Shown: positions 8,610 through 31,400 of the stretch, piece by piece
Position numbering within the stretch: the first letter of the stretch is position 1
Layout of the letters: each line of letters opens with the position of its first letter
Assembly (NCBI GenBank): GCA_008729055.1
Contig: SDUX01000005.1
Span: forward strand, 2,935,018-2,999,017
DNA length: 64,000 nt
Origin: Pyropia haitanensis
Lineage: Eukaryota; Rhodophyta; Bangiophyceae; Bangiales; Bangiaceae
Reading direction: 5' to 3'
The notes under the pieces: model-generated
Database searches by the model: none
The model's input: only the letters and a program-made list of their open reading frames with translations
What the model was told of the DNA's origin: nothing
Position numbers and translations under genes: made by a program

Positions 8610-8619
8610 CGGGGTCACC
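8610..8619. repeat. Left target-site duplication of element A
   Basis: The 10 bases CGGGGTCACC abut the left terminal repeat. An identical 10-mer abuts the right terminal repeat at 30352-30361. Flanking bases differ on both outer sides, so the duplication is 10 bp. Confidence 0.88.
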
Positions 8620-8672
8620 GTAAAGGAATCGGGTGCAACAGGTATCACACGCAAATTTATGTGAACCCTGGC
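8620..8672 (+). repeat. Left terminal inverted repeat of element A
   Basis: It matches the reverse complement of 30299-30351 in two fixed blocks, AGGAAT and CAGGTATCACAC, plus TGTGAACCCTG further in. About 19 of the first 31 positions are identical. Confidence 0.85.
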
Positions 8673-8685
8673 GTGAACTCTCTTG

Positions 8686-8840
8686 GACCAATCAGATGAG
8701 CTAGGTCTGCTTCACGGCCGCTAGGGCCGTCACCAGACAATGAGCCCCAGACACCGTCCAAACGCCTCCAAACGAGCGTCAATGAGACACCGAAGTCGCT
8801 GACACTGCGTGTCAAACAGACAGACATGTGTCAGACACGG
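8686..8840 (+). promoter_or_regulatory. Subterminal CCAAT motif and CAGACA cluster of element A
   Basis: GACCAATCA at 8686-8694 is followed by five CAGACA motifs between about 8733 and 8838. Element B carries the same CCAAT motif and five CAGACA motifs at the same distance from its left end. By analogy with other DNA transposons these could be transposase-binding repeats beside a transposase promoter; that role is inference. Confidence 0.5.
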
Positions 8841-9103
8841 TACCCGGGCCCTGGCCCGAACACCAGATGCGATCGGCGTCGTGGCCACCTGTCGTCCTGC
8901 CGACCGCCGTCACCGTCCCCCGCCCGCCGTCACGTCCCATCCGGGGGGCGGTCGATGTGCTGCTCGCTGCGGACGGGGCTCACCAGGGACTCGCGGCGCC
9001 TCTGGCAGCCCACGATCCCTGCTTGAAGCCGCCAGGTTTCCACGGTGTCTCCCACCCCACGTGCCGACACGACGACGGCGACGGCGGCGCGGATTATTTG
9101 GGA

Positions 9104-10490
9104 GCGGGCGCAGGGGGGGGCGCGTTCCGGGCGGCTGGCGCGCTGCTGGTTGTCGGGGCTTTCCCGCTCGCGCTCTGGGCGCCTGGGGCTGCGTGGTGCG
9201 CGCTGGGGTCGTCGAGCGCGTCTGCGCCGCTCGGGTGGCGGGCGGCGGCGGCGACGGCGGCAGCGGGGTGGTTCTTTTTGACCGGGGGCAGGGGGGGGCG
9301 GGTCGCGGGCGGCTGGCCCGCTGCTGGTGGTCGGGGCTTTCCCGCCTGCGCTCCGGGCGCCTGGGGCTGCGTGGTGCGCGCTGGGGTCGTCGAGCGCGTC
9401 TGCGCCGCTCGGGTGGCGGGCAGCGGCGGCGACGGCGGCAGCGGGGCGGTTTGTTTTTGACCGGGGGCAGGGGGGGGCGGGTTGCAGGCGGCCGGCCCGC
9501 TGCTGGCGGTCGGGGCTTTCGCGCTTGCGATCTGGGCGCCTGGGGCTGCGTGGTGCGCGCTGGGGTCGTCGAGCGCGTCTGCGCCGCTCGGGTGGCGGGC
9601 GGCGGCGGCGACGGCGGCAGCGGGGTGGTTCTTTTTGACCGGGGGCAGGGGGGGGCGGGTCGCGGGCGGCTGGCCCGCTGCTGGTGGTCGGGGCTTTCCC
9701 GCCTGCGCTCCGGGCGCCTGGGGCTGCGTGGTGCGCGCTGGGGTCGTCGAGCGCGTCTGCGCCGCTCGGGTGGCGGGCAGCGGCGGCGACGGCGGCAGCG
9801 GGGCGGTTTGTTTTTGAGCGGGGGCAGGGGGGGGCGGGTTGCAGGCGGCCGGCCCGCTGCTGGCGGTCGGGGCTTTCGCGCTTGCGATCTGGGCGCCTGG
9901 GGCTGCGTGGTGCGCGCTGGGGTCGTCGAGCGCGTCTGCGCCGCTCGGGTGGCGGGCGGCGGCGGCGACGGCGGCAGCGGGGTGGTTCTTTTTGACCGGG
10001 GGCAGGGGGGGGCGGGTCGCGGGCGGCTGGCCCGCTGCTGGTGGTCGGGGCTTTCCCGCCTGCGCTCCGGGCGCCTGGGGCTGCGTGGTGCGCGCTGGGG
10101 TCGTCGAGCGCGTCTGCGCCGCTCGGGTGGCGGGCGGCGGCGGCGACGGCGGCAGCGGGGTGGTTCTTTTTGACCGGGGGCAGGGGGGGGCGGGTCGCGG
10201 GCGGCTGGCCCGCTGCTGGTGGTCGGGGCTTTCCCGCCTGCGCTCTGGGCGCCTGGGGCTGCGTGGTGCGCGCTGGGGTCGTCGAGCGCGTCTGCGCCGC
10301 TCGGGTGGCGGGCAGCGGCGGCGACGGCGGCAGCGGGGCGGTTTGTTTTGAGCGGGGGCAGGGGGGGGCGGGTTGCGGGCGGCTGGCCCGCTGCTGGTGG
10401 TCGGGGCTTTCGCGCTTGCGCTCTGGGCGCCTGGGGCTGCGTGATGCGCGTTGGGGTCGTCAAGCGCGTCTGCGAAGAGCGCGCAGCGGT
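9104..10490 (+). repeat. Subterminal tandem array, about 7.8 units of 178-179 bp
   Basis: The block beginning GCCTGGGGCTGCGTGGTGCG recurs near 9180, 9358, 9538, 9716, 9895, 10073, 10252 and 10430. Units alternate between two variants, one with GGTGGTTCTTTTTGACC and one with GGCGGTTTGTTTTTGA, in the order A B A B A A B, so part of the array has a 357-bp higher-order period. The final unit is truncated and diverged. Because 357 is divisible by three, open frames run across it on both strands; I regard these as an artefact of the repeat. Confidence 0.93.
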
Positions 10491-10590
10491 TGTATCGGCG
10501 CTACGACGGACCAGCGCCGGACGCAGGTGTTGCGTGTGGTGACCGCCGCTGCGGTGTGTTGATTCATGAGCAACGCAACTGGGCAGCGTC

Positions 10591-13500
10591 ATGTGCGATG
10601 AGCTCGAAGAGAGACCTGTGTTCCCGGCACCTGTGCGCTTCCCTTTTGCGGGTACAATGCGCCAGGCTCGTGCCACTGTTGCTGGGCTGTCCTCTCGTCC
10701 ACCTGATGGCGGCATCGGAGCCGTGTTGGTTACAGGCGAGACGCCCGGTTCCAGGTTTCGTCCGGTCGGCGCTGGTGTGTCCGAGCGGCTCGCAGCGCTT
10801 CCGCAACCCGACGATCCGATCAACCCTGGTTGCGAAGATGAAGACGAGCAGCGCCGTCGTCAAGCGGCGCGGCTGCTGCGACGCGAGCAGAGGCGCGGTG
10901 GGGGGCCACCTGCTGTTGATATCAACAATGACGACAGCGACTCCGCCACCCCTGTCCCTGTGTCGCAACCCGCTCCCACGCGTCGCCCGCCTACGAAGAT
11001 CAGGGTGGAGCATCTCATCCAAGACGTGTTGGTGCCGTGCGTGCGGCGCGTCTGTGGTTTACCAACGTCGGAGGCTCTTCGTAGTCGTCTTGTCTCCGTT
11101 TCGGCGGACATCGTTGGCCACGATGAGTCGTCGTCTCGCGCCATCCTGCTGCGTACTGGGTCGAGCAAGCGGGACACCGCTATCATGTGGGTGTCGCATC
11201 GGGGAGGCTTGCTGTGCTCCTGCCTAGCTGGAACGCACAACGCGCTCTTTTTGTCTACCTCCTCTCGGAGCATGGACTGCTTCCACTCTTGCGCTCTGCG
11301 GACTTCCCTGGACACGGCGGGCGTTGGCATCGACTTGTTTCGGTCCCGGATGCGGCTCTGCGACGACCCCGCGCCGTTTGCTCGCAGCGTGTCGTTTGGG
11401 GCATCGTTGGTGTGGACCGTGCTCTACCGATCGGTCTTCTCCCTCGTCTCCTTCACGACTGCAAACACGGCGACCTGTATTGCACCTGCGTGCCGACGCT
11501 TCCGCTCAAGATGTGGGCACGTCCTGGCAGCGCGTGCGCATTGCAAGCGTCTTGGCATCTCTGGGCATGGCGCGGCACCGCCGGGAGCAGCTGCCGAAAA
11601 GCTCGACGAGAAGAAGGCGGCCACCCAAGGTCGCCGAGCACGCTTCCTCTCCCACGAGGAGGAGGACGAGGGCGTAGAGCAGCTGCCGCTGAGCACGATG
11701 CGAGGAGTGCACGAGACGGAAGTGAGCAAGCTTAGCAAGAGGCAGGCGCGTAACATGCTCCCCTGCCATGTGGAGGTGCGCGAGGGAGAGGTGTGGGCGC
11801 GCACGGCTGATTGGTGTCACATCTACGAACAGCGCAAGGCGGCCGACGACATCGGCAAGGCCACCGAACTAGCGACTCATAGCGCCATTGGCGCGTCGAT
11901 GGAGCGTTGGGGCCTAGTACGTGATTTGGACGAGGTGCTCGTCGAAGCGGCCTGTGGCAGCTGCGGCCTGAAGCGCGGCGCGGAGCATTTGATCAAGAAG
12001 GAAGCCGGCCTTCTCTGCACTCACCATCCGACGGCACCCGCCGTGAAGGTACGGCTGCGGTCTGCGCGTCTCTTTTCGCACCGATCCCTCAACGTCTCTT
12101 CTTTGCAAGCATAGGCTTGCAGCTTCTGACACGTGCACGACTCTCTTTAGCTGTATGGCGTCCTGGACGTGGGCTGCCCTCCTCTGATTTGCGTGCAGGT
12201 GACCGTCGGGAGCTGGACCTGTACCCGGGAGACGTGCGGATGCGTGGTCGAATACGACGGCAATGCGGACGCCCTCTTCAGCCTGCGACGTAAGAACAAG
12301 AAGGGGCAGTGGCTGGTGTTTACCAGGGGCATCATTGAGAAGCTGGTATCTTTTTTAGTCTCTGCGCGGTCGACCTACACGGCCGCTACGCGGCACCTTT
12401 CTTCCGACGTGCGGTCGTTCCGTCTGCGGCGGCAAGACGTGGTGAAGCTGGGGACGGCCGCCATCCGCACTTTCGCTGTGCCGCCGGAGACGGCTCGCTG
12501 TCCGACGTGCGGGCCCAACCCCGAGTTCGTCGTCATCGATGGCCAAGCTCTGGGATGCAGTGATCCGGACGATGTCAACCCGATCCGCCCGTCCGTGAAC
12601 TGCCCGGTGCTCGACATCCCCGCCCCTATGCTGTGTGTACTTCCCGATGCCCCGCTGCGCGCTGCCATCGACAAGGTGCTACGAGGCACCACGCCCTTGA
12701 CAGCTACCCAAGAGCGTCTACTGCGCGACTGGGCGAGCCAGGTCCGCCCAGTGGGACGGCACTCGCCTGCCGCGGCTGGCGCCTACGTGTTCTTCCGTTT
12801 TTTCCCCCTCGGGGACGATCCTACTGGCAGAGCTGCTGGGAAAGATTCTGAACGCGTTGGAGCAGACGCCGACCGAGGTGATGATGCTGAGGTTGCCGAC
12901 GATGTTGGGGGTGATGAAGCCGCGCTGCGCAAGAAGGGCCAGCACGAGAGAGTACTGGAGGACGCCGTGCGTGAAGACGACGATGGCAACCTGGTGCTGG
13001 GCGGCAAGGGGCGCGCGCCGAAGAAGCCAGCAGAGACGTGGCGCGACCGGAAGGGGCTCTGCGCGCCCAACTTCAATGAGTTCCCTCGCGAAGATGACGG
13101 CTTGTGGATCTGCGTCCGCCCGTTCCTGCAGGCGTTTTTGACGGAAGGGCTCACGGGCATGTTCCAGAGCCACGACGAGCGAGCGGTGCGTCTTTTTGCA
13201 AACACCCTACGGCTTGGTAGCGGGAGCGCGTGGCGCGAGATGACGGAGGCGGTCGACGGGGTTGGCTTCGTAGCCAGCTTCATCGGGTGTGTGGGCGACA
13301 GCCTGGAGGCCGACCGGCGGCTGCGGCTCGCCGTCGGGGAGCTCCTCCTGCGCGCTGTAGACGTGGAGCAGTACGCCGACAAGGAGTTTGAGAAGGAGGC
13401 TAATAAGCAGTCGACCAAGGACCGGGGCTGGCGCAATGCGGAGTACTGCGCGCGGTGGAACAAGCGCCCCACGCCCGCGGACTACAAGAAGTGGAGGACT

Positions 13501-15585: not shown

Positions 15586-15686
15586 GCAGTGGCTAGCACG
15601 CGTCGCTGGCAACGGGGGGGCTGTTGACTTTGAAAGATAGGGCTTGTTACAATGGGGCGACAGAGAGTGTGATCGGCACAGTGACG

Positions 15687-16620
15687 CGAGATGCAGTGTT
15701 TTTTGTTGAGCTGGTTTGCGCATATTGCTAGCCTCTATGTGTGACCGCATGTGCAACAGGGTTGGCCTGGTCGCTGGTTTTGTTGCGTGTACTTCACATG
15801 CTCCAGAGGCCCGCCGTGCGTCCTTTCTTCTCGGTACAGAGTGCATCCAGCGGAGCGCCTGTTTTTGAATGCTGCGCACATTTCAAACGACAACCATACC
15901 GGGCATGCTACTTCAAAACTGTGCGGGCATGACAGCGATGCAACTCTAGCCGCAAGCTAAATGCATGCACTTTAGCTGCCGTCATTATGTGGACCACTGG
16001 GTGTGGTTGTGTGGTCGAGCACAGCGGTGCGTCAGCCAGGTCGACCGCAGCTCCTGTATGTCCACCATAGCGGCACTTGTGGAGTAGCGTTCGCCACTGA
16101 AAGAAACTAGGGTCCGAAGTGGAGTTGAGGACATGGCCGCGCTTCCTGGTCCCCCATGCATGTGTCCGCTGGAGTCCGTCTCCAGTGAGTAGCAGTAGCT
16201 TCCGCCTGTCTCAGAAAGCGAGTCAGCACAATGCGCTGAGACTCGTGCCGCTGCATTGGAAACTCTGGTGGTCACACCCGTCAGCAAAAGAACTGCCAGT
16301 ACGCTCGAGAAGCAGTGAGCGCGGGTACGAGCGGTGGGTGTTAGGGCGGTAGCCGCGGAGACGTAGAGCGGATGCCGCCGCAGGGTCGTGCAGGTCCGCG
16401 ACGACAGGCTGCACCACACGCTGCATCAGTCGTTGCCACCACTGGTGGCCGTTCCGCAGGTGTGGGAGACCACAATCCGCCAGGATGGCTGCGGCGCCGG
16501 CGTCGACCGTGAGCCGCGGGTGCACACGCCGTCCGCTGGCGGCAGGCGGTGCCACTCGTGGCACTCTTCCATCGCTCTGCACCACCACGGCTGCGTGCCC
16601 GATTCGAATGCCACCAGAGA
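15687..16620 (+). repeat. Inverted arm 1 inside element A
   Basis: This segment matches the reverse complement of 22338-23452 over most of its length, with visible substitutions and indels, by eye about 75-90% identity depending on the part. The match is closest at 15687-15935 and 16455-16620. Its inner end abuts the duplicated core at the sequence AGCTGAAAAAGAG. Confidence 0.8.
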
Positions 16621-16986
16621 GACAGCTGAAAAAGAGACTAAACCGGTCTGCTGTTCTGCTCAGGTTATACGGAGACTTGTCACGCAGGGCATGCCTACAT
16701 ATCTCACACTGCTGCACGACACTGTCGTACTTTCCAGCCAGTGCATATGTTTTTGTTGCAAAAGGCTTCGACAAAGACCGCCGCCCTCTATACCAGTGTG
16801 TCGCAACTTGCACTCAACGGAGCATTGTTAGGCCTGAGAAGGCACAGCGTCGGCGGTCGTAGCCAGCTGCTGGTTCTGGTCGACTGTACACCGCCCATGC
16901 GAGGTGCTATTTTCCAAAAAGACAGCGATGTTCGCGAACGAAGCCGAGGCCAGCCGGTTCAGAGCGTACGGCATACTACCCATGTG
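16223..16986 (-). CDS. Unknown element A protein (orfX), copy 1, frame-disturbed
   Basis: I do not recognise this protein. A minus-strand start (MHMGSMPYALNRLASASFAN) lies at about 16986. The frame is broken near 16840 by a small indel relative to the second copy, then continues through ATHWYRGR, QCEICRHALRDKSPYN and into arm 1 with GHAAVVVQSDGRVPRV, AAILADCGLP, MQRVVQPVVADLHDPA and a stop at 16223. The arm 2 sequence encodes a recognisably similar polypeptide on the opposite strand (GHAAVVVQSDGRVPRV, AAAILANCGLP, LQRVVQ, YPRSL, CDHKSFQ). Conservation at protein level despite DNA indels argues for a real coding past. The gene is divergent from the helicase, whose start is about 470 bases away. 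No transmembrane segment or catalytic motif is evident; the C-x-x-C pair in QCEICRHAL is the only possible metal-binding feature. Confidence 0.4.
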
Positions 16987-17457
16987 CACGGCGGCTAGCC
17001 CGTAGGCGTGCCGAGGAACAGCCGCCCCAGCTAAAGTCGGATGGAATTAAGGCCCGCTGGTGATTAGCAGTGTGTACTTACTCGGCTTGTGGCACCCTGG
17101 TATGATAAAATTCTGACGCCTAAAATTATGAACAAACGGACACTGCCGCACGACCCGCCATCCCGCACTTTTCGAGCCCGCCTGAATGGAACGTGGCCCC
17201 TCACGAGACCGGTTGTCCACTGTACCGACCCATCTCAAGACGTGGGCATATCGAGCCTTGACGCTTGTCTCGGACGGTTATACTGCAGGGTCGGTCCCGT
17301 GCCCTCCTCCTCCCGCCTCTCTCCTCCTCCCACCTACATCCCTTTGCTGCTTTCGAACCCCTCCTCCCCGCACTCTTTTCATCTCTTTGCCAGTGTTGTT
17401 CGGAGCGCCCATTTCGGTGATCTGTATCCTGGTCGGCTGCCGCGACCGTTTCACGGG

Positions 17458-20379
17458 ATGGGTTCGCGACCCAAGTCTGACTCGGCTGCCCCGGCAGGCA
17501 CCGGCTACATCGGCTTCATCTCGGCCCATGCCTCCATCATCCACGCTGCGTCTGACGTGGACAGCATCGCTGACCGGCTGTTGGAGTCTGTCAGAGGTCA
17601 CTGCTTTGCGACCCAGTGCTTTTCGTTGCAAGCTGACGCGGTCTGCTGGTTGACGGACCCCTGGCGTGCGGCGGCGCTGATTGACGGAGACAAGGGCATC
17701 GCGACGAGCTCATCGGTCGGCTGTGGGCCCGAGCTGACGTGGTTGGCAACGTTGACGATGTCTTCCCGGTCGTGCGTGCAGCTCGACCGTGCGGGCGTGA
17801 GGTTGGCGCTGTCACTGATCGCCAACCCTGCCGTCGGCACCTGTGTCATCGGACGCTTCTATACAGACCAAGAAGCGTGGTCCTGGCTGGGCAGCGACAT
17901 CGCGCGCTCGCTGCTGGACGTCGTTGACGCCGCCGCTCCTGCTGATGGCCTCTCAGTAGGTGGTGACATTCAGGCGGATCCCCTCTCTGCCGGAGGAGCC
18001 CCAGTCGCACCCCTTCAAGAACCCGACGCAGCTGTGGAGGCACGTGCTCCTGTCGTCTCCAACCTCGACACGCATGTACATGTCGGGGACCTGGGAAGCC
18101 TGCCTGGCGTTTCCTGGGCGTCCGCGACTTCCACTACCCCGGCCGCTGTTTGTGGTGCGCGTCAGGCTCCGACCGCACGGGGCACGACCACACGGCTCTC
18201 CCACAGCCGTCACACGAGCACTGGCGACGTACCTTGGCGGAGGACTTTCCGTGCTGAGGCAACCAGGGGCAAAAGTGGACGAGTGGAAGGCTGGGCAGCT
18301 GTTGACGGCAGCTCTCCGGCCGTCGGGAGCTTGACATTTCGTCCCCTGCGCAAGCGTGTTGTTTCGTCGCTGTACGGACTCGATGCGTTTATGGGCAGTG
18401 ACAATGTGAGCACGCCGGTCGTTCGTTCATTGCCTGTGACGCCGGGGTCGCCCACTTTGGCGTCTCCGACTGCTTCAGCTGAGCTGTCTTCCTCGGGGCG
18501 CAAGCGCTCAAGGCCTCATCCCACCGTTGGCGACGAGCCGTCTGGTCTTTTGAATCCTCGCTTTAGCGCGAAGGAGCCGTACCACGGCATATTGAGCATG
18601 GCGGAGATCAAGAAGTCGATGGCCCATTCCCGCGCTGTTTGGGAGCAGCAGGACCTGCTCGACGCGTGCGCGAAGGCGGACACGGCAAGACAATCGGGAT
18701 CCGCGGCACCTGCGAACGCGTCGGCTGGCGTGATGACTGCAGGGCCATTGTCGTCTTCCAAGGTCATGCGTGGGGGCACTTGCGTTGTCGATCATCTCTC
18801 GGCCAAGTCCCACACCACCGCGCCGACTGGTACATCCTCGGTAGTGCCCTCCTGTGCGTCATCTCTTGCTGTGACGGCTGTGACACCTGCCCAGGCGTCC
18901 CCCGCGGAGACTCCTCAGTGCAGCTTGAACGATGCGAGCAGCCCCGACGTGGACGGAGTCGTCAGCGAGCCCCGGGCCATCGGCCGGCTAGCTGCCAACG
19001 GCGATTGGGACGGCGTGTGCGCGAAGCTCTGGGCTCGCCGCAGGAGTGCTCTTGTGTCGGGTGGTCCGGGGACGGGCAAGTCGACGCTGTTGAAGCGCTT
19101 TCACGCGTTTATGTCTGCTCGACTTGGCGCGGGCGCTGTTGTTGTCGTCGCCCGACAGGCACTGCGGCTAAGACAGCAGGTGGAATGACCTGCCACTCTT
19201 TCTTCGGGTTTGAGAGGGGGTACGATGCCGCCGGAGCGGACCCTGCCGCGGAGGCCGCACGTCTTTTGCGGACCGCACGGTTCGGTCCCATCAAGAAGCG
19301 GCTGTTGCGGACCCGCGTCGTGCTTCTGGACGAGATTTCCTTGGTCAGCGCGGAGAAGCTGGACGTCATGTATGAGCTCATGGTGCATGCGCGCCCGGCG
19401 TCGTCCCCGGCGGTTTTATGGTTCCTGTTCGGGGACTTCTTGCAGCTCATGCCAGTGGAGGGCACTGTTGCATTCAAGGCCAAGTGCTGGCCCGCCTTTA
19501 TAGGCAACAACTTTTTGGAGCTGTCGGTTGTGCACCGGCAGGAAGAGCCGGACCTGGTCCAAGCCGTGCAAGATGTTCGCGTCGGCGTCTGCTCCCCCAC
19601 TGTTCTCGCCGTGATGAAGGAGCGGCAGGTTGGTGGCCGGGAGTACGAGGCCGTGCAAGACAAGGTGCTGCACCTGATGCCGCGCCTGGAGGACGTTACC
19701 TCTCACAATCGGTCGTGCCTTTCCGGCTGGGCGGCGAGGACGGGGTGAGGACTTCAATGGCAACCGACTCCACACGTCTGGACCCCAACCGGGACCCGAA
19801 CCTGCACATCGATGTGGCGGTGATGGTGACGGCGGCGACAAAAAGAGCTGCATTGGTGGATTGCGTAGCTCCTCCTTCAGTCTCCCACTCGCTGCATGCT
19901 CGCGTCATGCTTTTGGACAACCGTCGGCGCGTGCTGGGTCTCTGCCACGGCAGCGTGGGCACGATCACGTCGTACCTACCGTGCGGCACACCTGTCGTGC
20001 GGTTCGAAAACAACCCCCTTCCCCTTGGTGTGTGCGTGCAAGGCCTGGGAGTGCACGACGCTGGCGACACGTGGATAGAGGTGGAGTGCCCAGCGGTTGA
20101 CTTCACGGCACGCATCCTGTCGAAGCCCCGGCATGCTTGCGGTGCGCACGCAAGTGCCCTTCGTGCTGGGTTGGGCCGCCACCGTGCACATGTCACAAAG
20201 CCTGACTTTGTCTGAGGTGGTGGTTGATCTGGCCAGGGCGTTTGGGCCTGGGATGGTTCTCTCGGCTATGAGGCCGCGTTTGCAAGAAGCAGAACCTGTA
20301 CGTGAAGTCATTTTGTCCTTCCCGCGTGTACGCTGCTCCACTTGCTCTTGAGATGTATCGCACGTGGGATCGGTTGTAG
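17458..20379 (+). pseudogene. Pif1-type helicase, copy 1 (frameshifted)
   Basis: This is the first copy of the helicase described at 24039-27206. From the Met at 17458 (MGSRPKSDSAAP) the frame is open through the Walker A motif and ends at 19188, because one C is missing from a short C run near 19150 relative to copy 2. Further single-base differences near 19720, 20128 and 20271 move the frame again before the shared stop at 20377-20379. Its N-terminal frame is, however, continuous with the conserved body, whereas copy 2 has an extra C there (about 24325). The two copies thus carry complementary single-base differences, which suggests sequencing or assembly error more than decay. An alternative upstream Met at 17089 exists but the added residues look non-coding. 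Confidence 0.8.
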
Positions 20380-20485
20380 CGTTAGAGTTACTATTGTTCA
20401 AGACTTGAGTCACACCATGTCACTCGCCACCGATCGGCGTCTTCCATGCCGTCGCGCGCTCAACCGGCCGTATGCCATGCTTATA

Positions 20486-21838
20486 TTACTCTTCATTGCT
20501 ACAAAGTGATGGTTGTACAGCATCAGACACGCGCGCGCTACGGTCAAAGTTGTCCACGTCCATATAAGCATTGTCCATCAGTTGCTTGTCCGCGCCCCGC
20601 TCTTTTGCTTCACCCGTTGCCGGCCGTCCCTTCGTCTACGTTGGCATGTTCCTGAATAGGGTGAGAGGGGGCAGAAGCAGGGAACACTGCAACTAGCGGC
20701 CCAGGAGGACCGTGATTTCCACCGGCCGAAGATGCTCCAGTGCCACCTGTCAACGCCAAGGAGTCTCGTGCCGCCGCTGGCCCGTGCTCCACCGCAGCCG
20801 GGGATAACGCGCCAGCAGTCGACACACTGGCAGAGCCGACTGCCGAAGAGGCATGTACATGCGTCGGCATCGATGCAGTGACCGCGTTTTTAGCCGGCAA
20901 TGGAGCCGATGCCTGCATGTCGACCTCGTCAAGCGGGAGCACTTGCATAAAGCGAGCGCGCTTGGCGTCAGGCGGCGCCTCAGTCGCAGACGAGGATGGG
21001 GGAAGAGAGGATTGTACGGCAGCAGCAAGAGCCGAGGCGCTTAAGGGCAGCGCCTCAGCACCGGGACGGCCCGCACGTAGACTGGAAGCGCGCCGCACTC
21101 TCATTCGGTGGGCCCTTCTGTCTGCCGCTGCTGCCGCAGCCTCGACGGCAAGTTGGGTGTCCATATCGGCGTACTGCTTCTCCATTTCCGCATCTCTTGC
21201 CAACGTGCCACTTTCTGGCTCGTTAGGGGGGCTCCGGGTGGATGACGTGGGAGGACGTGGCGCTTCCGTGCTTAAGAGCAGCCCTGCTGCAAGAAACTCG
21301 TGACGCGTTGCCTTCGTCGGTGAAGCCGCCAACTGGTACTTGGACGCGCGGCCAGTAGAAGCAAGCCCCTGCAGAAGGGCGCCGTAGCCGTGCTCTTTGG
21401 TCGCCAAAAGCAACATGCATGCGACGACAACCGTCATGCGTAGCTTCTTCTTACCAAACAGTCTGATGACCGTTTCTGCTGGGGGAAGCGTGCTCTTGAG
21501 GAAGTAGCGCGACTGGCACTGCATCTGCTCGACGATGGGGTTCACGGCGTCCATATTTACCAGCAACACCAGCGAGAAGTGAGCGCTCGCCGAGTGGGGT
21601 TGGCCACGGACGCCACCGTGCCTAGCTCAGGAAGGCAGTCGCTGGAGCCCTGTCTTGCCACCCACATGGGCCACCACAAGTCCGTCAAGTCGTGCACGTC
21701 CGTCCAGTCGGTCCTCGGCCGCCCATTCTTCGTCTTTTCGTTGAACTTGAAGCCTTCTTGACGCCGCTGCGCACTAAGCACAGCAGGCTGTTCCGCGAGC
21801 CAGATTGACGTAAAACATGCGATGGCGTCCGTCCGCTC
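20486..21838 (-). pseudogene. Unknown 763-residue-type protein, copy 1 (5' part lost in the gap)
   Basis: This minus-strand copy matches the C-terminal part of the gene at 27313-29604. It shares the stop position (20486-20488) but carries single-base differences near 20620 and 21570 that break the frame. The remaining 5' part, including the start, falls in the assembly gap or is absent. Beyond the gap the sequence is inverted arm 2, not the rest of this gene. Confidence 0.8.
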
Positions 21839-22337
21839 NNNNNNNNNNNNNNNNNNNNNNNNNNNNNNNNNNNNNNNNNNNNNNNNNNNNNNNNNNNNNN
21901 NNNNNNNNNNNNNNNNNNNNNNNNNNNNNNNNNNNNNNNNNNNNNNNNNNNNNNNNNNNNNNNNNNNNNNNNNNNNNNNNNNNNNNNNNNNNNNNNNNNN
22001 NNNNNNNNNNNNNNNNNNNNNNNNNNNNNNNNNNNNNNNNNNNNNNNNNNNNNNNNNNNNNNNNNNNNNNNNNNNNNNNNNNNNNNNNNNNNNNNNNNNN
22101 NNNNNNNNNNNNNNNNNNNNNNNNNNNNNNNNNNNNNNNNNNNNNNNNNNNNNNNNNNNNNNNNNNNNNNNNNNNNNNNNNNNNNNNNNNNNNNNNNNNN
22201 NNNNNNNNNNNNNNNNNNNNNNNNNNNNNNNNNNNNNNNNNNNNNNNNNNNNNNNNNNNNNNNNNNNNNNNNNNNNNNNNNNNNNNNNNNNNNNNNNNNN
22301 NNNNNNNNNNNNNNNNNNNNNNNNNNNNNNNNNNNNN
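21839..22337. other. Assembly gap (499 N)
   Basis: Unknown bases interrupt element A between core copy 1 and inverted arm 2. The true length and content cannot be judged. Open frames reported across it are meaningless. Confidence 1.
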
Positions 22338-23452
22338 GTCCTCTCTGGTGGCATGTTCGAATACGGGCACGCAGCCGTGGTGGTGCAGAGCGATGGAAGA
22401 GTGCCACGAGTGGCAACGCCTGACCGCCAGCGGACGGCGGTGTGCAGAACCCTGCGGCTCACGGGTCGACGCGGCGCCGCAGCCATCCTGGCGAATTGTG
22501 GTCTCCCCACACCCTGCGGAACAGCGGCCACGCAGTTGTGGCACAACGACTGGATTTGCAGCGTGTGGTGCAGCTGTCGTCGCGGACACTGCACGACCCT
22601 GCGGACGATACCGCTCTATCCGTCTCCACGCTGAGCGACCGTCCCTATACCAACGCGCCACTCGCCTCGTACCCGCGCTCACTGGCTTCTCGGCGTGACT
22701 GGGGCAGTTCTTTTCTGGCGACCCGGTGTGACCACAAGAGTTTCCAGATTCCTGCACTCCCGCGCACGAGTCTCACGCACTATGCTTGCTGACCTCGCTT
22801 TCCGTGAGAACGCTACGAATTCTGAGCTGCTACTCCTCAGCTCGGAGGACACGGACCTCCAGCGGACACGAGATGCTGGGGGGACCCAGGAAAGCGCGCC
22901 ATGTCCTCACATATCGCCTTCGGACCCTAGTTATTCTGTCTCGAGCTTTGGCGGCAACACCCACGTACTCACAAGTGCGCTATGGTGGACATACAGGAGC
23001 TAGCGGTGGTCGAACCTGGCTGGAACGTCGAGCACGCGTGGTGCGTCGACCCCACGACAACCAGACACCTCGTGGTCCATCATGAATCGACGCAGCTAAG
23101 TGCCTATCGCTCATTCTAGGCATTGCCGCCCGCTAGAGATTGCAATCGCTGTCATGCCCGCACAGTTTTGAAAGTAGCATGCCCGGTATGGTTTGTCGTT
23201 TGAGAAGTTGCGCAGCATGTCAACAAAACCAGGCGCTCCACGCTGAGTATGCACTCCGTAGTACCGAGAGAACCGCGCACGAGGCAACGCCAGCGGTCTG
23301 CGGCGCCATCACGGCAGGCATGCACGTACACAACAGGACCAGCGACCGGCGCAACCCTGTTGCACATGCACGAGTCACACAATAGACGGCTAGCAATATT
23401 CCGACAGCAGAACCCAGCTCAACAAAAAAGGCACTCGCTGGGCATCTCGCCT
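22338..23452 (-). repeat. Inverted arm 2 inside element A
   Basis: This is a diverged, inverted copy of 15687-16620. Its outer end (homologous to 15687) abuts core copy 2 at 23453, whereas in arm 1 the opposite end abuts the core. The arm is therefore flipped relative to the core between the two copies. Its plus strand encodes pieces of the orfX-like polypeptide in shifting frames. Confidence 0.8.
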
Positions 23453-23488
23453 AGCTGAAAAAGAGACTAAACCGGTCTGCTGTTCTGC

Positions 23489-23818
23489 TCAGGTTATACG
23501 GAGACTTGTCACGCAGGGCATGCCTACATATCTCACACTGCTGCACGACACTGTCGTACTTTTCCAGCCAGTGCATATGTTTTTGTTGCAAAAGGCTTCG
23601 ACAAAGACCGCCCGCCCTCTATACCAGTGTGTCGCAACTTGCACCAACGGAGCATTGTTAGGCCTGAGAAGGCACAGCGTCGGCGTCGTAGCCAGCTGCT
23701 GGTTCTGGTCGACTGTACACCGCCCATGCGAGGTGCTATTTTCCAAAAAGACAGCGATGTTCGCGAACGAAGCCGAGGCCAGCCGGTTCAGAGCGTACGG
23801 CATACTACCCATGTGCAC
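23489..23818 (-). pseudogene. orfX N-terminal part, copy 2 (cut by the flipped arm)
   Basis: This frame begins MHMGSMPYALNRLASASFAN and reads further than copy 1, through LCLLRPNNAPLVQVATHWYR and CNKNICTGWK, to a stop at 23489. The rest of the gene, which in copy 1 lies in arm 1, is missing in this orientation because arm 2 is inverted. Copy 2 therefore cannot encode the full protein. Confidence 0.45.
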
Positions 23819-24038
23819 GGCGGCTAGCCCGTAGGCGTGCCGAGGAACAGCCGCCCAGCTAAAGTCGGATGGAATTAAGGCCCGCTGGTGATTAGCAGTG
23901 TGTACTTACTCGGCTTGTGGCACCCTGGTATGATAAAATTCTGACGCCTAAAATTATGAACAAACGGACACTGCCGCACGACCGCCATCCCGCACTTTTC
24001 GAGCCCGCCTGAATGGAACGTGCCCCTCACGAGACCGG

Positions 24039-27000
24039 TTGTCCACTGTACCGACCCATCTCAAGACGTGGGCATATCGAGCCTTGACGCTTGTCTCGGA
24101 CGGTTATACTGCAGGGTCGGTCCCGTGCCCTCCTCCTCCCGCCTCTCTCCTCCTCCCACCTACATCCCTTTGCTGCTTTCGAACCCCTCCTCCCCGCACT
24201 CTTTTCATCTCTTTGCCAGTGTTGTTCGGAGCGCCCATTTCGGTGATCTGTATCCTGGTCGGCTGCCGCGACCGTTTCACGGGATGGGTTCGCGACCCAA
24301 GTCTGACTCGGCTGCCCCGGCAGGCCACCGGCTACATCGGCTTCATCTCGGCCCATGCCTCCATCATCCACGCTGCGTCTGACGTGGACAGCATCGCTGA
24401 CCGGCTGTTGGAGTCTGTCAGAGGTCACTGCTTTGCGACCCAGTGCTTTTCGTTGCAAGCTGACGCGGTCTGCTGGTTGACGGACCCCTGGCGTGCGGCG
24501 GCGCTGATTGACGGAGACAAGGGCATCGCGACGAGCTCATCGGTCGGCTGTGGGCCCGAGCTGACGTGGTTGGCAACGTTGACGATGTCTTCCCGGTCGT
24601 GCGTGCAGCTCGACCGTGCGGGCGTGAGGTTGGCGCTGTCACTGATCGCCAACCCTGCCGTCGGCACCTGTGTCATCGGACGCTTCTATACAGACCAAGA
24701 AGCGTGGTCCTGGCTGGGCAGCGACATCGCGCGCTCGCTGCTGGACGTCGTTGACGCCGCCGCTCCTGCTGATGGCCTCTCAGTAGGTGGTGACATTCAG
24801 GCGGATCCCCTCTCTGCCGGAGGAGCCCCAGTCGCACCCCTTCAAGAACCCGACGCAGCTGTGGAGGCACGTGCTCCTGTCGTCTCCAACCTCGACACGC
24901 ATGTACATGTCGGGGACCTGGGAAGCCTGCCTGGCGTTTCCTGGGCGTCCGCGACTTCCACTACCCCGGCCGCTGTTTGTGGTGCGCGTCAGGCTCCGAC
25001 CGCACGGGGCACGACCACACGGCTCTCCCACAGCCGTCACACGAGCACTGGCGACGTACCTTGGCGGAGGACTTTCCGTGCTGAGGCAACCAGGGGCAAA
25101 AGTGGACGAGTGGAAGGCTGGGCAGCTGTTGACGGCAGCTCTCCGGCCGTCGGGAGCTTGACATTTCGTCCCCTGCGCAAGCGTGTTGTTTCGTCGCTGT
25201 ACGGACTCGATGCGTTTATGGGCAGTGACAATGTGAGCACGCCGGTCGTTCGTTCATTGCCTGTGACGCCGGGGTCGCCCACTTTGGCGTCTCCGACTGC
25301 TTCAGCTGAGCTGTCTTCCTCGGGGCGCAAGCGCTCAAGGCCTCATCCCACCGTTGGCGACGAGCCGTCTGGTCTTTTGAATCCTCGCTTTAGCGCGAAG
25401 GAGCCGTACCACGGCATATTGAGCATGGCGGAGATCAAGAAGTCGATGGCCCATTCCCGCGCTGTTTGGGAGCAGCAGGACCTGCTCGACGCGTGCGCGA
25501 AGGCGGACACGGCAAGACAATCGGGATCCGCGGCACCTGCGAACGCGTCGGCTGGCGTGATGACTGCAGGGCCATTGTCGTCTTCCAAGGTCATGCGTGG
25601 GGGCACTTGCGTTGTCGATCATCTCTCGGCCAAGTCCCACACCACCGCGCCGACTGGTACATCCTCGGTAGTGCCCTCCTGTGCGTCATCTCTTGCTGTG
25701 ACGGCTGTGACACCTGCCCAGGCGTCCCCCGCGGAGACTCCTCAGTGCAGCTTGAACGATGCGAGCAGCCCCGACGTGGACGGAGTCGTCAGCGAGCCCC
25801 GGGCCATCGGCCGGCTAGCTGCCAACGGCGATTGGGACGGCGTGTGCGCGAAGCTCTGGGCTCGCCGCAGGAGTGCTCTTGTGTCGGGTGGTCCGGGGAC
25901 GGGCAAGTCGACGCTGTTGAAGCGCTTTCACGCGTTTATGTCTGCTCGACTTGGCGCGGGCGCTGTTGTTGTCGTCGCCCCGACAGGCACTGCGGCTAAG
26001 ACAGCAGGTGGAATGACCTGCCACTCTTTCTTCGGGTTTGAGAGGGGGTACGATGCCGCCGGAGCGGACCCTGCCGCGGAGGCCGCACGTCTTTTGCGGA
26101 CCGCACGGTTCGGTCCCATCAAGAAGCGGCTGTTGCGGACCCGCGTCGTGCTTCTGGACGAGATTTCCTTGGTCAGCGCGGAGAAGCTGGACGTCATGTA
26201 TGAGCTCATGGTGCATGCGCGCCCGGCGTCGTCCCCGGCGGTTTTATGGTTCCTGTTCGGGGACTTCTTGCAGCTCATGCCAGTGGAGGGCACTGTTGCA
26301 TTCAAGGCCAAGTGCTGGCCCGCCTTTATAGGCAACAACTTTTTGGAGCTGTCGGTTGTGCACCGGCAGGAAGAGCCGGACCTGGTCCAAGCCGTGCAAG
26401 ATGTTCGCGTCGGCGTCTGCTCCCCCACTGTTCTCGCCGTGATGAAGGAGCGGCAGGTTGGTGGCCGGGAGTACGAGGCCGTGCAAGACAAGGTGCTGCA
26501 CCTGATGCCGCGCCTGGAGGACGTTACCTCTCACAATCGGTCGTGCCTTTTCCGGCTGGGCGGCGAGGACGGGGTGAGGACTTCAATGGCAACCGACTCC
26601 ACACGTCTGGACCCCAACCGGGACCCGAACCTGCACATCGATGTGGCGGTGATGGTGACGGCGGCGACAAAAAGAGCTGCATTGGTGGATTGCGTAGCTC
26701 CTCCTTCAGTCTCCCACTCGCTGCATGCTCGCGTCATGCTTTTGGACAACCGTCGGCGCGTGCTGGGTCTCTGCCACGGCAGCGTGGGCACGATCACGTC
26801 GTACCTACCGTGCGGCACACCTGTCGTGCGGTTCGAAAACAACCCCCTTCCCCTTGGTGTGTGCGTGCAAGGCCTGGGAGTGCACGACGCTGGCGACACG
26901 TGGATAGAGGTGGAGTGCCCAGCGGTTGACTTCACGGCACGCATCCTGTCGAAGCCCGGCATGCTTGCGGTGCGCACGCAAGTGCCCTTCGTGCTGGGTT

Positions 27001-27206
27001 GGGCCGCCACCGTGCACATGTCACAAAGCCTGACTTTGTCTGAGGTGGTGGTTGATCTGGCCAGGGCGTTTGGGCCTGGGATGGTTCTCTCGGCTATGAG
27101 CCGCGTTTGCAAGAAGCAGAACCTGTACGTGAAGTCATTTTGTCCTTCCCGCGTGTACGCTGCTCCACTTGCTCTTGAGATGTATCGCACGTGGGATCGG
27201 TTGTAG
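24039..27206 (+). CDS. Pif1-type superfamily 1 helicase, copy 2
   Basis: A 5'-to-3' DNA helicase of the Pif1/RecD group is predicted. In the 1055-residue frame the motor motifs are in order: Walker A SGGPGTGKST (617-625), motif Ia APTGTAAKTAGG then T-x-HSFFGF, Walker B VVLLDE (D707, E708), motif III FGDFLQLMPV (about 740-749), a motif near ELSVVHRQ (about 770), and motif VI ATVHMSQSLTLSEVVVDL (about 987-1005). The usual motif VI reads H-K-S-Q-G, so M and S are substitutions here. About 600 residues of low-complexity, Ser/Ala/Pro-rich sequence precede the motor. The first part of the frame may be shifted, since an extra C near 24325 separates it from the better start, equivalent to 24284. The gene converges with the 763-residue gene, 106 bases apart. 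No Rep/HUH nuclease is present, so this is not a Helitron. I infer a role in the replication or repair steps of transposition. Confidence 0.85.
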   Translation: MSTVPTHLKTWAYRALTLVSDGYTAGSVPCPPPPASLLLPPTSLCCFRTPPPRTLFISLPVLFGAPISVICILVGCRDRFTGWVRDPSLTRLPRQATGYIGFISAHASIIHAASDVDSIADRLLESVRGHCFATQCFSLQADAVCWLTDPWRAAALIDGDKGIATSSSVGCGPELTWLATLTMSSRSCVQLDRAGVRLALSLIANPAVGTCVIGRFYTDQEAWSWLGSDIARSLLDVVDAAAPADGLSVGGDIQADPLSAGGAPVAPLQEPDAAVEARAPVVSNLDTHVHVGDLGSLPGVSWASATSTTPAAVCGARQAPTARGTTTRLSHSRHTSTGDVPWRRTFRAEATRGKSGRVEGWAAVDGSSPAVGSLTFRPLRKRVVSSLYGLDAFMGSDNVSTPVVRSLPVTPGSPTLASPTASAELSSSGRKRSRPHPTVGDEPSGLLNPRFSAKEPYHGILSMAEIKKSMAHSRAVWEQQDLLDACAKADTARQSGSAAPANASAGVMTAGPLSSSKVMRGGTCVVDHLSAKSHTTAPTGTSSVVPSCASSLAVTAVTPAQASPAETPQCSLNDASSPDVDGVVSEPRAIGRLAANGDWDGVCAKLWARRRSALVSGGPGTGKSTLLKRFHAFMSARLGAGAVVVVAPTGTAAKTAGGMTCHSFFGFERGYDAAGADPAAEAARLLRTARFGPIKKRLLRTRVVLLDEISLVSAEKLDVMYELMVHARPASSPAVLWFLFGDFLQLMPVEGTVAFKAKCWPAFIGNNFLELSVVHRQEEPDLVQAVQDVRVGVCSPTVLAVMKERQVGGREYEAVQDKVLHLMPRLEDVTSHNRSCLFRLGGEDGVRTSMATDSTRLDPNRDPNLHIDVAVMVTAATKRAALVDCVAPPSVSHSLHARVMLLDNRRRVLGLCHGSVGTITSYLPCGTPVVRFENNPLPLGVCVQGLGVHDAGDTWIEVECPAVDFTARILSKPGMLAVRTQVPFVLGWAATVHMSQSLTLSEVVVDLARAFGPGMVLSAMSRVCKKQNLYVKSFCPSRVYAAPLALEMYRTWDRL

Positions 27207-27312
27207 CGTTAGAGTTACTATTGTTCAAGACTTGAGTCACACCATGTCACTCGCCACCGATCGGCGTCTTCCATGCCGTCGCGCGCTCAACCGGCCGTAT
27301 GCCATGCTTATA

Positions 27313-29604
27313 TTACTCTTCATTGCTACAAAGTGATGGTTGTACAGCATCAGACACGCGCGCGCTACGGTCAAAGTTGTCCACGTCCATATAAGCATTG
27401 TCCATCAGTTGCTTGTCCGCGCCCCGCTCTTTTGCTTCACCGTTGCCGGCCGTCCCTTCGTCTACGTTGGCATGTTCCTGAATAGGGTGAGAGGGGGCAG
27501 AAGCAGGGAACACTGCAACTAGCGGCCCAGGAGGACCGTGATTTCCACCGGCCGAAGATGCTCCAGTGCCACCTGTCAACGCCAAGGAGTCTCGTGCCGC
27601 CGCTGGCCCGTGCTCCACCGCAGCCGGGGATAACGCGCCAGCAGTCGACACACTGGCAGAGCCGACTGCCGAAGAGGCATGTACATGCGTCGGCATCGAT
27701 GCAGTGACCGCGTTTTTAGCCGGCAATGGAGCCGATGCCTGCATGTCGACCTCGTCAAGCGGGAGCACTTGCATAAAGCGAGCGCGCTTGGCGTCAGGCG
27801 GCGCCTCAGTCGCAGACGAGGATGGGGGAAGAGAGGATTGTACGGCAGCAGCAAGAGCCGAGGCGCTTAAGGGCAGCGCCTCAGCACCGGGACGGCCCGC
27901 ACGTAGACTGGAAGCGCGCCGCACTCTCATTCGGTGGGCCCTTCTGTCTGCCGCTGCTGCCGCAGCCTCGACGGCAAGTTGGGTGTCCATATCGGCGTAC
28001 TGCTTCTCCATTTCCGCATCTCTTGCCAACGTGCCACTTTCTGGCTCGTTAGGGGGGCTCCGGGTGGATGACGTGGGAGGACGTGGCGCTTCCGTGCTTA
28101 AGAGCAGCCCTGCTGCAAGAAACTCGTGACGCGTTGCCTTCGTCGGTGAAGCCGCCAACTGGTACTTGGACGCGCGGCCAGTAGAAGCAAGCCCCTGCAG
28201 AAGGGCGCCGTAGCCGTGCTCTTTGGTCGCCAAAAGCAACATGCATGCGACGACAACCGTCATGCGTAGCTTCTTCTTACCAAACAGTCTGATGACCGTT
28301 TCTGCTGGGGGAAGCGTGCTCTTGAGGAAGTAGCGCGACTGGCACTGCATCTGCTCGACGATGGGGTTCACGGCGTCCATATTTACCAGCAAACACCAGC
28401 GAGAAGTGAGCGCTCGCCGAGTGGGGTTGGCCACGGACGCCACCGTGCCTAGCTCAGGAAGGCAGTCGCTGGAGCCCTGTCTTGCCACCCACATGGGCCA
28501 CCACAAGTCCGTCAAGTCGTGCACGTCCGTCCAGTCGGTCCTCGGCCGCCCATTCTTCGTCTTTTCGTTGAACTTGAAGCCTTCTTGACGCCGCTTGCGC
28601 ACTAAGCACAGCAGGCTGTCCGCGAGCAGATGACGTAAAACATCGATGGCGTCCGTCCGCTCCAAAACGGTACGAAGCACAAAGGAGACGCACTCGACAG
28701 CGTCCGGTGTGGGCACCACAGTGGGCTGTTCGTCGTGTACATTCTTGACGAGACCACGTCCATCACCATCGTCCAATCCCCTTTCAGAAGCATCTTGCTC
28801 GTCGTCACTCACCTTGGCAGTGACTCGGCTGGCTATCACCATGCCGCCACGTGGAACTTGCGCGTCCACCATGCCGCGTCCTGCAGCGCCGGAGGTACCA
28901 GGTGGCGGGGTCGGTGGCAGATCAGCGCCTTGGCTCTGGTTCGCGACCACGGTGCCGCTGTCAGGCGGATCTCGGCCCGCTTCTCCGTTGCCGTCTCCTG
29001 CGCTTTCACGTACAGGAGCCCCGCGCGTCGAGAGCACCGCCCCGCCAACTGGAATACTTTCCCCTTCAGCCGTGGCAGCAGGCGTTGTGCAGTCAGGCGC
29101 CGCACCATTAACATCAGGACCACGAGCGCCAACACCCTTGCCAGCAGCAGCCGTCGTGTCCCCGCGTGGATGTCCATCGCCACGTTCCCGTCCTGATGAG
29201 GCGTTGTCCTGGTTGAGCGCGAGCGCGTTGATGCCGGCCAGAGCATCGACCTGCTTGTGGCGGTACGCAAAGGAGAGGCCAATGTTGACAATTCGCTGCG
29301 CGTGCGCGTCGTGGTCAGTGAAGAAGCCCAGACGGTCAACGACACGAATCCAGCAGTGCGTTGGGATGTCCATCGGGTTGTCCGTCGTTTGCAGCCGGCT
29401 GATTGCCGAGTGGAAAGCCGCGCCATGCGGCTCCAGGTACTTGTCCAACTTGGCAGCCGTCCTGTACAGGTCACGTAGCAAAGGAGCCAAAAACGACACC
29501 ACCTCCCCGTCGACAATGCCGAGGGACTCGAGGAACAGGACGTACTCCTTAAGCTGCGCGTTGTCAGCCAAGCTAGGCATGGTACGCACGCAGCGACTAG
29601 ACAC
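27313..29604 (-). CDS. Unknown element A protein (763 residues)
   Basis: I do not recognise a family. From MSSRCVRTMPSLADN (a second Met at 29580 may be the true start) the protein has a helical N-terminal region of about 120 residues (YVLFLESLGIVDGEVVSFL, PTHCWIRVVDRLGFF), then a low-complexity acidic and Pro/Ala-rich linker. A central block follows with FNEKTKNGRPRTDWTDVHDL, LWWPMW and a basic hydrophobic segment LFGKKKLRMTVVVACMLLLA. The C-terminal third is disordered and has Arg-rich stretches such as RRAHRMRVRR and DAKRARF that could be nuclear localisation signals. A splice acceptor-like TTTTTCAG lies just upstream at about 29792 on this strand, so further 5' exons are possible. Element B keeps a fragment that may match the N-terminus. 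Conservation between the two core copies is uninformative because they are nearly identical. Confidence 0.6.
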   Translation of the reverse strand: MSSRCVRTMPSLADNAQLKEYVLFLESLGIVDGEVVSFLAPLLRDLYRTAAKLDKYLEPHGAAFHSAISRLQTTDNPMDIPTHCWIRVVDRLGFFTDHDAHAQRIVNIGLSFAYRHKQVDALAGINALALNQDNASSGRERGDGHPRGDTTAAAGKGVGARGPDVNGAAPDCTTPAATAEGESIPVGGAVLSTRGAPVRESAGDGNGEAGRDPPDSGTVVANQSQGADLPPTPPPGTSGAAGRGMVDAQVPRGGMVIASRVTAKVSDDEQDASERGLDDGDGRGLVKNVHDEQPTVVPTPDAVECVSFVLRTVLERTDAIDVLRHLLADSLLCLVRKRRQEGFKFNEKTKNGRPRTDWTDVHDLTDLWWPMWVARQGSSDCLPELGTVASVANPTRRALTSRWCLLVNMDAVNPIVEQMQCQSRYFLKSTLPPAETVIRLFGKKKLRMTVVVACMLLLATKEHGYGALLQGLASTGRASKYQLAASPTKATRHEFLAAGLLLSTEAPRPPTSSTRSPPNEPESGTLARDAEMEKQYADMDTQLAVEAAAAAADRRAHRMRVRRASSLRAGRPGAEALPLSASALAAAVQSSLPPSSSATEAPPDAKRARFMQVLPLDEVDMQASAPLPAKNAVTASMPTHVHASSAVGSASVSTAGALSPAAVEHGPAAARDSLALTGGTGASSAGGNHGPPGPLVAVFPASAPSHPIQEHANVDEGTAGNGEAKERGADKQLMDNAYMDVDNFDRSARVSDAVQPSLCSNEE

Positions 29605-30224
29605 GGCACGGTGGAGCAGCAGTCAAACACGACGCGGCAAACGAGACGAGTACGCAGATGCAAAACCGCAGGTAGACCATTGTCAGCACCTCGCTGCCGC
29701 GCACCGAATGGCACGGGCACCCTTAGAAGCACGAAGGGTTCCAACTAGAATACCGAGGGCGAGCCACGTTTCCTCGACAAAGGGCACGTACAGCTGAAAA
29801 AGAAAGACAGGGAAGAGACATACCGCGCGGCAAGCGCCTTGTCAGGCTCGTGCTTCAAGTCGCGTCACACAGCCAGGAACGACAGGAAGTCGTTGAGGAG
29901 AAGTCCAGGAGAAAAAAGCAACCGGGGGGAGGGAGGGCGGGAAGTACGCAGGGTGAGAGTGTGCTGCGGAAGCGGCGACAGAAGGGGTGGACGAGGCGGT
30001 GGTCGGCGCGGTCATGAGTGCCACGCCATTGCACAAGGTGGGCGGGCGCAAGGACGGTGGCGGCGGCGTAGCGGGCCCCAATCTCCGAGAATGACATGGA
30101 GTCGTACACGATTGAAGTGCATCCAGACACACAGTCAAGGATGAAGCGTCCGACGCTGTCAAGGATGAACAGCAAAGCGGCCCGGGAGATCTATTCACGA
30201 GCAGGCCGCGTGGTGCCACGCGAT
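29605..30224. other. Right subterminal region of element A
   Basis: No intact gene is visible. On the minus strand a stretch at about 30105-29980 reads SMSFSEIGARYAAATVLAP, and one at about 29790-29690 reads LYVPFVEETWLALG; both have weak counterparts at the matching place in element B (QMDFALCRISCAAF and YVPLAPY). They may be upstream exons of the 763-residue gene. Confidence 0.3.
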
Positions 30225-30291
30225 TGGTCAACCCCCCCCCCGCACGCCCCCCCCCCGCCCCCCCCACCCCCCCCCCCACCCCCCCCCCCAG
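30225..30291. repeat. Poly-C tract next to the right TIR of element A
   Basis: About 67 bases are almost all C on the plus strand, with a few A and G interruptions. Element B has a comparable C tract in the same place. G-quadruplex or i-motif formation is possible but not shown. Confidence 0.9.
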
Positions 30292-30298
30292 GTATCAC

Positions 30299-30351
30299 GG
30301 AGCAGGGTTCACACACATTCGTGTGATACCTGATCTGGTAAATTCCTAACT
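30299..30351 (-). repeat. Right terminal inverted repeat of element A
   Basis: Read on the minus strand from 30351, AGGAAT occupies bases 5-10 and CAGGTATCACAC bases 20-31, the same spacing as on the left. TGTGAACCCTG follows. An additional GGTATCAC lies at the inner edge, so the segment can also fold as a hairpin. Confidence 0.85.
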
Positions 30352-30361
30352 CGGGGTCACC
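30352..30361. repeat. Right target-site duplication of element A
   Basis: CGGGGTCACC, identical to 8610-8619, directly outside the right terminal repeat. Confidence 0.88.
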
Positions 30362-30380
30362 CCTCCTCGTCCCGACGGCG

Positions 30381-31155
30381 CAGTGGTGTCAAACCCGCGA
30401 ACGTCGGGCCATCGTGCCGCGGCGTGCACAGTCCCTGACGGGGCCTGTGAGAGGGGGGGGGACCAACCCCGAGTGCACGCCGCGTGCGTCGATGGCACGA
30501 AATTTTGCACTCTGTGCACAGATTATTGCACGCAGTGCACGCTGGAGCGCACGCCTTGGCACGCAGCAGTGCACGGACGGTTCGTGTTGCCAGATTATTT
30601 ACTACGGCCCAATTCAACAAGTGTGGGTGGCCTGTGTACTGTGCTGGACCATAAGGCAAGGTCATTGGCGCTATCCTCGAAACCGTCACCGTCCGGCGGA
30701 ATTAGGATGGATTTCTGAGAGTGAGGGCGTGCTTTGGGACAGCCCAACTACTGCCAATTGGGTTGTTTCGGGAATAGATCTGGGCCCGGCGTGCATCGGA
30801 GTGCACTGCTCCTTGCAAAGGCGTGCGCTCCACTGCGCATGGCCCGTGCCATCGCATGGCACGCAAAGCACAAAAACGTGCATCGTGTTGACGTCAGAGC
30901 GACTGAGGACGACGAGCATGGATTCCGATGACATACTGCAGGACGTGCTCATGCTCCAGTGCTCCCGTACGGCGGCTGGGAAAAAAAAGTGCTCCGGAAC
31001 TCATGCCTCAAAAGTGTACGGCGCCGTGCGTCGGCGTGCCAAAAAACCGTGGTCTGAGACCCCTTGGAGTGAGGTTTTCACGCCGTTGCACGGCCGATTG
31101 CACGCCCAGAGGGCGAAAATTTGATCCGCGGACGTTCGCGGGTTTGACACCACTG
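30381..31155. mobile_element. hAT-like non-autonomous element (MITE), 775 bp
   Basis: Perfect 25-bp terminal inverted repeats lie at 30381-30405 and 31131-31155, beginning CAGTGGTGTCAAACC, a terminus style typical of hAT transposons. The ends carry many TGCAC motifs on both strands (for example 30474, 30506, 30516, 30536, 31087, 31109), resembling hAT subterminal transposase-binding repeats. The flanking octamers (CGACGGCG and CGCGGGGG) agree at only five of eight positions, so a clean 8-bp duplication is not visible. No transposase is encoded. It sits 19 bases outside the right target duplication of element A. Confidence 0.75.
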
Positions 31156-31400
31156 CGCGGGGGGAGGAAGGGGACCACGACGACGGGCACGAGGGTGGCA
31201 GCCGCGGCGGCCGCGGCGGCCACGGCGGCGGCGCGATCGCTCGATTGTGGCCCGGGCGGCGGCATCCCGCCGCCGCTGTGCCGGCACGGCCGGCGCTGCC
31301 AAGGCGTCTCCTTCCCCCTGCGTCCTTCCACCCCCCCAGAAGCACCTCCGCCCCCACTAGCTGCCGGAGGGCCGCTGAGGCGGGTGCGTCGCTTGCCGCG

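Follow-up and report, generated by a model that had tools for sequence, protein, structure and literature searches.

In the window analysed here (64,000 nucleotides of Pyropia haitanensis, contig SDUX01000005.1), element A is best read as a KDZ-related transposon flanked by an 8-bp target duplication, likely moving by cut-and-paste and about 14.9 kb long. It encodes a transposase that carries an Ulp1 protease domain at its C-terminus, together with a Pif1-family helicase and a conserved protein of unknown function. The probability of this reading is put at roughly 0.85. It is built on the ends, the direct repeats of four elements, the protein domains, and a gene order that is kept in a divergent relative on C7. 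The features of element A and of its short relative, element B, are listed by window coordinates, with the strand in brackets where there is one.

8611-8618, left target-site duplication of element A, GGGGTCAC, identical to 30353-30360, boundary taken from the C7 and C11 copies
8619-8700 (+), left end of element A, CGTAAAGGAAT..CAGGTATCACAC..TGTGAA..CCAATCA, with CCAATCA at base 70
9073-10474 (+), G-rich tandem array, 7.7 copies of a 178-bp unit
10591-12048 (+), predicted transposase exon 1, the Cys-containing N-terminal part, 41% identity over 386 aa with the C7 relative
12049-12198 (+), predicted 150-nt GT-AG intron with a GTACG donor and a CAG acceptor, both also in C7
12199-15585 (+), predicted exon 2, KDZ-related core and Ulp1 (Peptidase_C48) domain
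16624-21838 (+), likely assembly duplicate of 23453-28667, 5.2 kb, with the helicase frame broken
21839-22337, assembly gap of 499 N
22341-23429 (-), inverted stretch that copies 15707-16629 with much noise, 157 gap openings at 79.6% identity
24039-27206 (+), Pif1-family helicase, 1055 aa, Walker A motif GGPGTGKS at residue 617
27313-29604 (-), conserved accessory protein, 763 aa
30232-30352 (-), right end of element A, GAGTTAGGAAT..CAGGTATCACAC, then poly-G from base 64
30353-30360, right target-site duplication of element A, GGGGTCAC, identical to 8611-8618
35333-37570 (+), element B (35341-37562) with its 8-bp duplication CAGTAGGG, a short and presumably non-autonomous relative

Both ends of element A carry AGGAAT and, nine bases further, CAGGTATCACAC at equal spacing. 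This arrangement had been reported in a preliminary description of the window, which judged a chance coincidence very unlikely, and the sequence bears the arrangement out. From base composition alone, ends with these 19 specified bases should turn up 5e-8 times in the window. The genome of the organism (52.9 Mb, 136 contigs) was searched with the end pattern, and at up to three mismatches it gave five matches, two in A, two in the C11 copy and one, with three mismatches, at a C7 end. A looser pattern gave ten matches with at most one mismatch. Eight of them combine into inverted pairs, one each for A, B, C7 and C11; the remaining two, each with one mismatch, are unpaired. The same pattern read backward, used as a control, had no match in this genome.

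The size of the duplication follows from where the element ends. The decamer CGGGGTCACC stands at 8610-8619 and 30352-30361, on both sides of element A, and had been taken for a perfect 10-bp target duplication. In C11, C7 and element B the termini lie one base further out than that boundary. Both C7 ends are bordered by CGTCACCG, an 8-bp repeat that sets the termini as GAGATAGGAAT and CGTGAAGGAAT; the C11 repeat, GGGTTCGGC, is 9 bp long and sets them at the same bases, and the repeat of element B is CAGTAGGG, 8 bp, at 35333-35340 and 37563-37570. By the termini that C7 and C11 define, element A spans 8619-30352 and its duplication is the 8-bp GGGGTCAC. A single terminus rule (CGT.../...CTC) gives duplications of 8 bp in A, B and C7 and of 9 bp in C11; for 8 bases to agree at one given place, p is about 5e-5. 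The ninth base of C11 falls within a G homopolymer where the sequence is poorly polished, and a sequencing indel may account for it. The transposon has matched ends and is flanked by a perfect duplication, as first described, with the duplication 8 rather than 10 bp long.

A distinct family with a genuine 10-bp, or variable 8-10 bp, duplication is an unlikely alternative reading of the same bases. If the element is taken to run from GTRAAGG to ..CT, then A (CGGGGTCACC) and B (CCAGTAGGGC) do show 10 identical bases, that is, one more on each side; at this boundary, however, C7 agrees in only 8 of 10 positions, its two mismatches lying at the outer edges, and a match in C11 requires a shift by one base. 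Moreover, a C precedes GTRAAGG in all four left ends and a G precedes AG in all four right ends, and such constant outer bases are expected of terminal bases, which argues against the 10-bp boundary. Under the 8-bp reading the coincidence of the extra agreeing bases in A and B has a probability of about 0.7%, which counts against that reading but is not enough to overturn it. With three elements at 8 bp, one at 9 bp and a KDZ-related transposase, the proposal of a new 10-bp transposon family loses its support. Duplications of 9-11 bp are found in MULE/MuDR elements; this candidate was rejected, with no MULE transposase domain among the Pfam matches of the scanned ORFs and homologues.

An empty site was sought in the same genome with the two flanks of element A joined, and none was found among the 40 of 44 candidates that were scored; apart from the window's own two halves, matches in this set cross the junction by 8 bases at most. 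On its right side the joined query matches a dispersed repeat, R1 (window 30378-31158), which starts 17 bp to the right of the duplication. R1 is a MITE-like repeat of 781 bp with perfect 28-bp terminal inverted repeats, and besides the window copy there are at least some 32 near-full-length copies at 82-100% identity.

Element A had been described as complete at 21.7 kb, a length that is not reliable. The interior holds the 499-N gap, a near-identical direct duplicate of 5.2 kb and a noisy inverted stretch, and neither C11 nor C7 has the duplication; the assembled length is therefore likely inflated, by an assembly error of about 6.8 kb. Removal of the suspect stretch leaves 14,905 bp. BLAST aligns the two direct copies, 16624-21838 and 23453-28667, without a mismatch but with 19 gap openings; the MAFFT alignment has 3 mismatches and 19 gap runs, 15 of the 19 in homopolymers. 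The inverted stretch is 166 bases longer than its source and, from its look, is likely the uncorrected end of a long read. The C11 copy at 4059255-4072827 is contiguous, free of N and without the duplicated part; it has 13,573 bases where A minus the duplicated part has 13,553, with 44 mismatches and 19 gap runs.

That the 6.8-kb duplication is real, a rearrangement particular to the C6 copy that would make the element truly 21.7 kb long, is very improbable. Its presence in the assembly speaks for it, but the two copies differ almost solely by indels, mostly in homopolymers, they are joined by the gap and the insertion-rich inverted stretch, and both C11 4059255-4072827 and C7 hold one copy only. 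C11 is itself interrupted by a 499-N gap, and it contains C6 flank sequence in a place where it does not belong. Between its two copies of the element lies a noisy copy of the C6 left flank, with 605 gap openings, that runs into a stretch equal to C6 2927154-2932971 (100% as rounded), and C11 itself thus appears to be misassembled. The stretch C11:4073325-4091152 is probably this misplaced flank copy; it is noisy in part and near-identical in part where tested, and it ends at the 499-N gap. The case shows that an assembly gap can inflate a giant element.

The transposase is predicted to be spliced from two exons into a protein of about 1,614 aa, and in the homologues P0054 and P0070 the part that corresponds to exon 1 is continuous with the KDZ part. 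The ORF at 12169-15585 matches Peptidase_C48 with 78.2 bits and KDZ with 18.3 bits, the latter below the Pfam cut-off of 26.6. An alignment of 40 members was made from 38 of at least 85 homologues together with the window and C7 proteins; the homologue searches scored only the candidates that share most words, and their counts are lower bounds. The Pfam KDZ model (PF18758) is matched at E<=0.01 by 39 of the 40 members (best 6.8e-8) and Peptidase_C48 by 31, and a precomputed KDZ domain is annotated in 11 of the 85 homologues. Judged by these relatives the transposase of element A is KDZ-related, with the window protein itself under the KDZ cut-off. Residues D501, D560 and E618 are invariant in all 40 sequences, and we would guess that they form the DDE triad; the AlphaFold model has low confidence in the catalytic core. 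KDZ transposases are marked by a DDE triad in an RNase H-like fold and by a CxC cysteine cluster N-terminal to the core. For the CxC4 model the scores are 20.1 bits (P0070) and 24.0 bits (P0084), each under its cut-off of 26.9, and there is no match in the window ORF. Viral contigs scanned with the transposase alignment gave no relative.

The second gene encodes a helicase that matches PIF1 in the PDB (E=2.3e-26) and whose Pfam matches are to AAA and PIF1 models only. The Helitron helicase is likewise of Pif1 type, and in Helitrons it accompanies an HUH/Rep domain, target duplications being absent. The ends of element A, unlike these, are paired and adjoin a target duplication. The Helitron reading was rejected: the helicase ORF has no Helitron domain (Pfam, E<=0.01), and duplications are present.

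In the same genome, six of the 15 other helicase places listed have a transposase match within 10 kb, at distances of 5.1-9.8 kb (binomial 7e-8); if the near-identical C2 and C9 places are counted once, there are five such places (2.7e-6). Among these, the C4 place at 2.14 Mb depends on two weak matches of about 31 bits. For this count, 55 transposase rows were reduced by hand to 35 places and 32 helicase rows to 15, after removal of second pieces of one place and of the window and C11 copies; the genome search scored the best candidates only, and its counts are lower bounds. The family at C2:2063953 and C9:412892 is a different one, in which the transposase and helicase matches are 9.8 kb apart. 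Its two copies are 99.8-99.9% alike over the compared parts, the flanks differ at the one end reached, and that end is placed at a shared break near ATGTAGTATCCAGGAATC.

The third gene, on the opposite strand, has at least 16 homologous proteins, one of them near-identical, with two conserved blocks at about residues 20-125 and 290-480. Pfam offers no family for the protein at E<=1, and the PDB no matching fold at E<=0.001 (mean pLDDT of the model 50). Among the genome matches listed (seven rows), its domain occurs only in A, the C11 copies of A, C7 and one weaker C11 place.

The helicase and the opposite-strand gene might instead be captured passengers without a part in transposition, a real possibility if the less probable one. 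Their order and orientation relative to the transposase vary among families, KDZ elements elsewhere carry varied extra genes (PMC12477816, from excerpts), and nine of the 15 other helicase places have no transposase match nearby. Against this, helicase and transposase matches occur together at the five other places counted above, and the frames are open in A and in C7. In addition, the longest contig is given as 14,458 bp for one helicase homologue and for one accessory homologue, and as 14,256 bp for one transposase homologue and for one accessory homologue, which suggests, but does not prove, a shared contig in each case. The recurrent combination of transposase-Ulp1, Pif1 helicase and conserved partner is an addition to the poorly studied KDZ group.

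Comparison with known systems draws on excerpts of the papers cited. Target duplications are 8 bp in Zisupton and Dileera and 7 bp in Kyakuja (PMC12730594), and element A resembles the first two in this respect; the 8-bp size of the Zisupton/Dileera type was found in three of the four two-ended elements, the fourth having 9 bp. Zisupton and Kyakuja elements have been reported from Chlamydomonas and its relatives (PMC8226300). Giant KDZ elements of algae reach 30.3 kb in Ectocarpus and 31.7 kb in Chlamydomonas, where transposition was seen (PMC12477816). Like them, element A has a transposase of more than 1,100 aa, a very large size and extra genes; unlike them, it has a Pif1-family helicase and a conserved opposite-strand protein. 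A search of the open-access literature, a scope with two central papers (on Chlamydomonas, and Iyer 2014) outside it, found no Pif1 helicase inside a KDZ element, and the excerpts of PMC7473861 and PMC7599744 describe none outside their helicase passages; the combination may still have been described in print. The excerpted text of PMC6431247, on giant transposons, does not name KDZ or Zisupton.

Helicases are known from other transposons. Academ elements carry helicase domains (PMC6416283), Helitrons combine a helicase gene with an HUH nuclease (PMC12730594), and KolobokH is a DDE transposon with a RecQ helicase (PMC9587614). Element A, a presumed DDE transposon with a helicase, is similar to KolobokH in this combination, but it belongs to another superfamily and its helicase is Pif1, whereas that of KolobokH is RecQ and lies downstream of the transposase domain; in a rhodophyte Kolobok the helicase is on the opposite strand (PMC9587614).

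The ends of A, B and C7 share further structure. By eye, CCAATCA is at base 69-70 in the three left ends, and five of the six ends read TCACA..TGTGA, the left end of B having TCACA..AGTGA. The right ends have a poly-G tract whose first base is number 64 in A, 65 in B and 63 in C7, and a further run follows at 112, 118 and 116, respectively; the three left ends lack G or C runs of at least 8 in their first 300 bases. Runs of G or C of at least 11 occur in control stretches at 1.2 per kb (53 in 43.3 kb), so the fixed spacing is unlikely to be due to chance, with the caveat that the families are related.

From the ends, the repeats and the domain, the DDE transposase would act by cut-and-paste with 8-bp staggered cuts, and it may recognise the subterminal palindrome TCACA-N-TGTGA and the AGGAAT box. 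The Ulp1 domain likely acts on SUMO-like tags and could remove them from the transposase or from host proteins. The helicase might serve to open DNA when the element is excised, in strand transfer or in repair, perhaps at the right-end poly-G tract, which raises the questions of whether the element needs a helicase of its own and whether the G-tract is its substrate. A further proposal, which we regard as doubtful, is that there is a helicase-equipped KDZ branch in which transposase, Pif1-type helicase and partner form one machine acting on the right-end G-tract, 63-65 bases in. If this is true, the element would depend on its own helicase to unwind G-quadruplexes whenever it is excised or copied.

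Element B is 2,222 bp long and has internal tandem repeats of about 189 bp; it shares with A about 75 bases at one end and about 86 at the other. Among the genome matches listed there is no full second copy of it. Element B is presumably a non-autonomous short relative, and the transposase of A may move such elements in trans. The C7 relative, at 3.644-3.669 Mb, is about 24.7 kb long and divergent from A, and has the same order of left end, array (171-bp unit), transposase, helicase, opposite-strand ORF and right end. Nested in its tandem array, at C7:3659779-3668502, is an LTR-retrotransposon-like insert of 8.7 kb with identical 523-bp LTRs.
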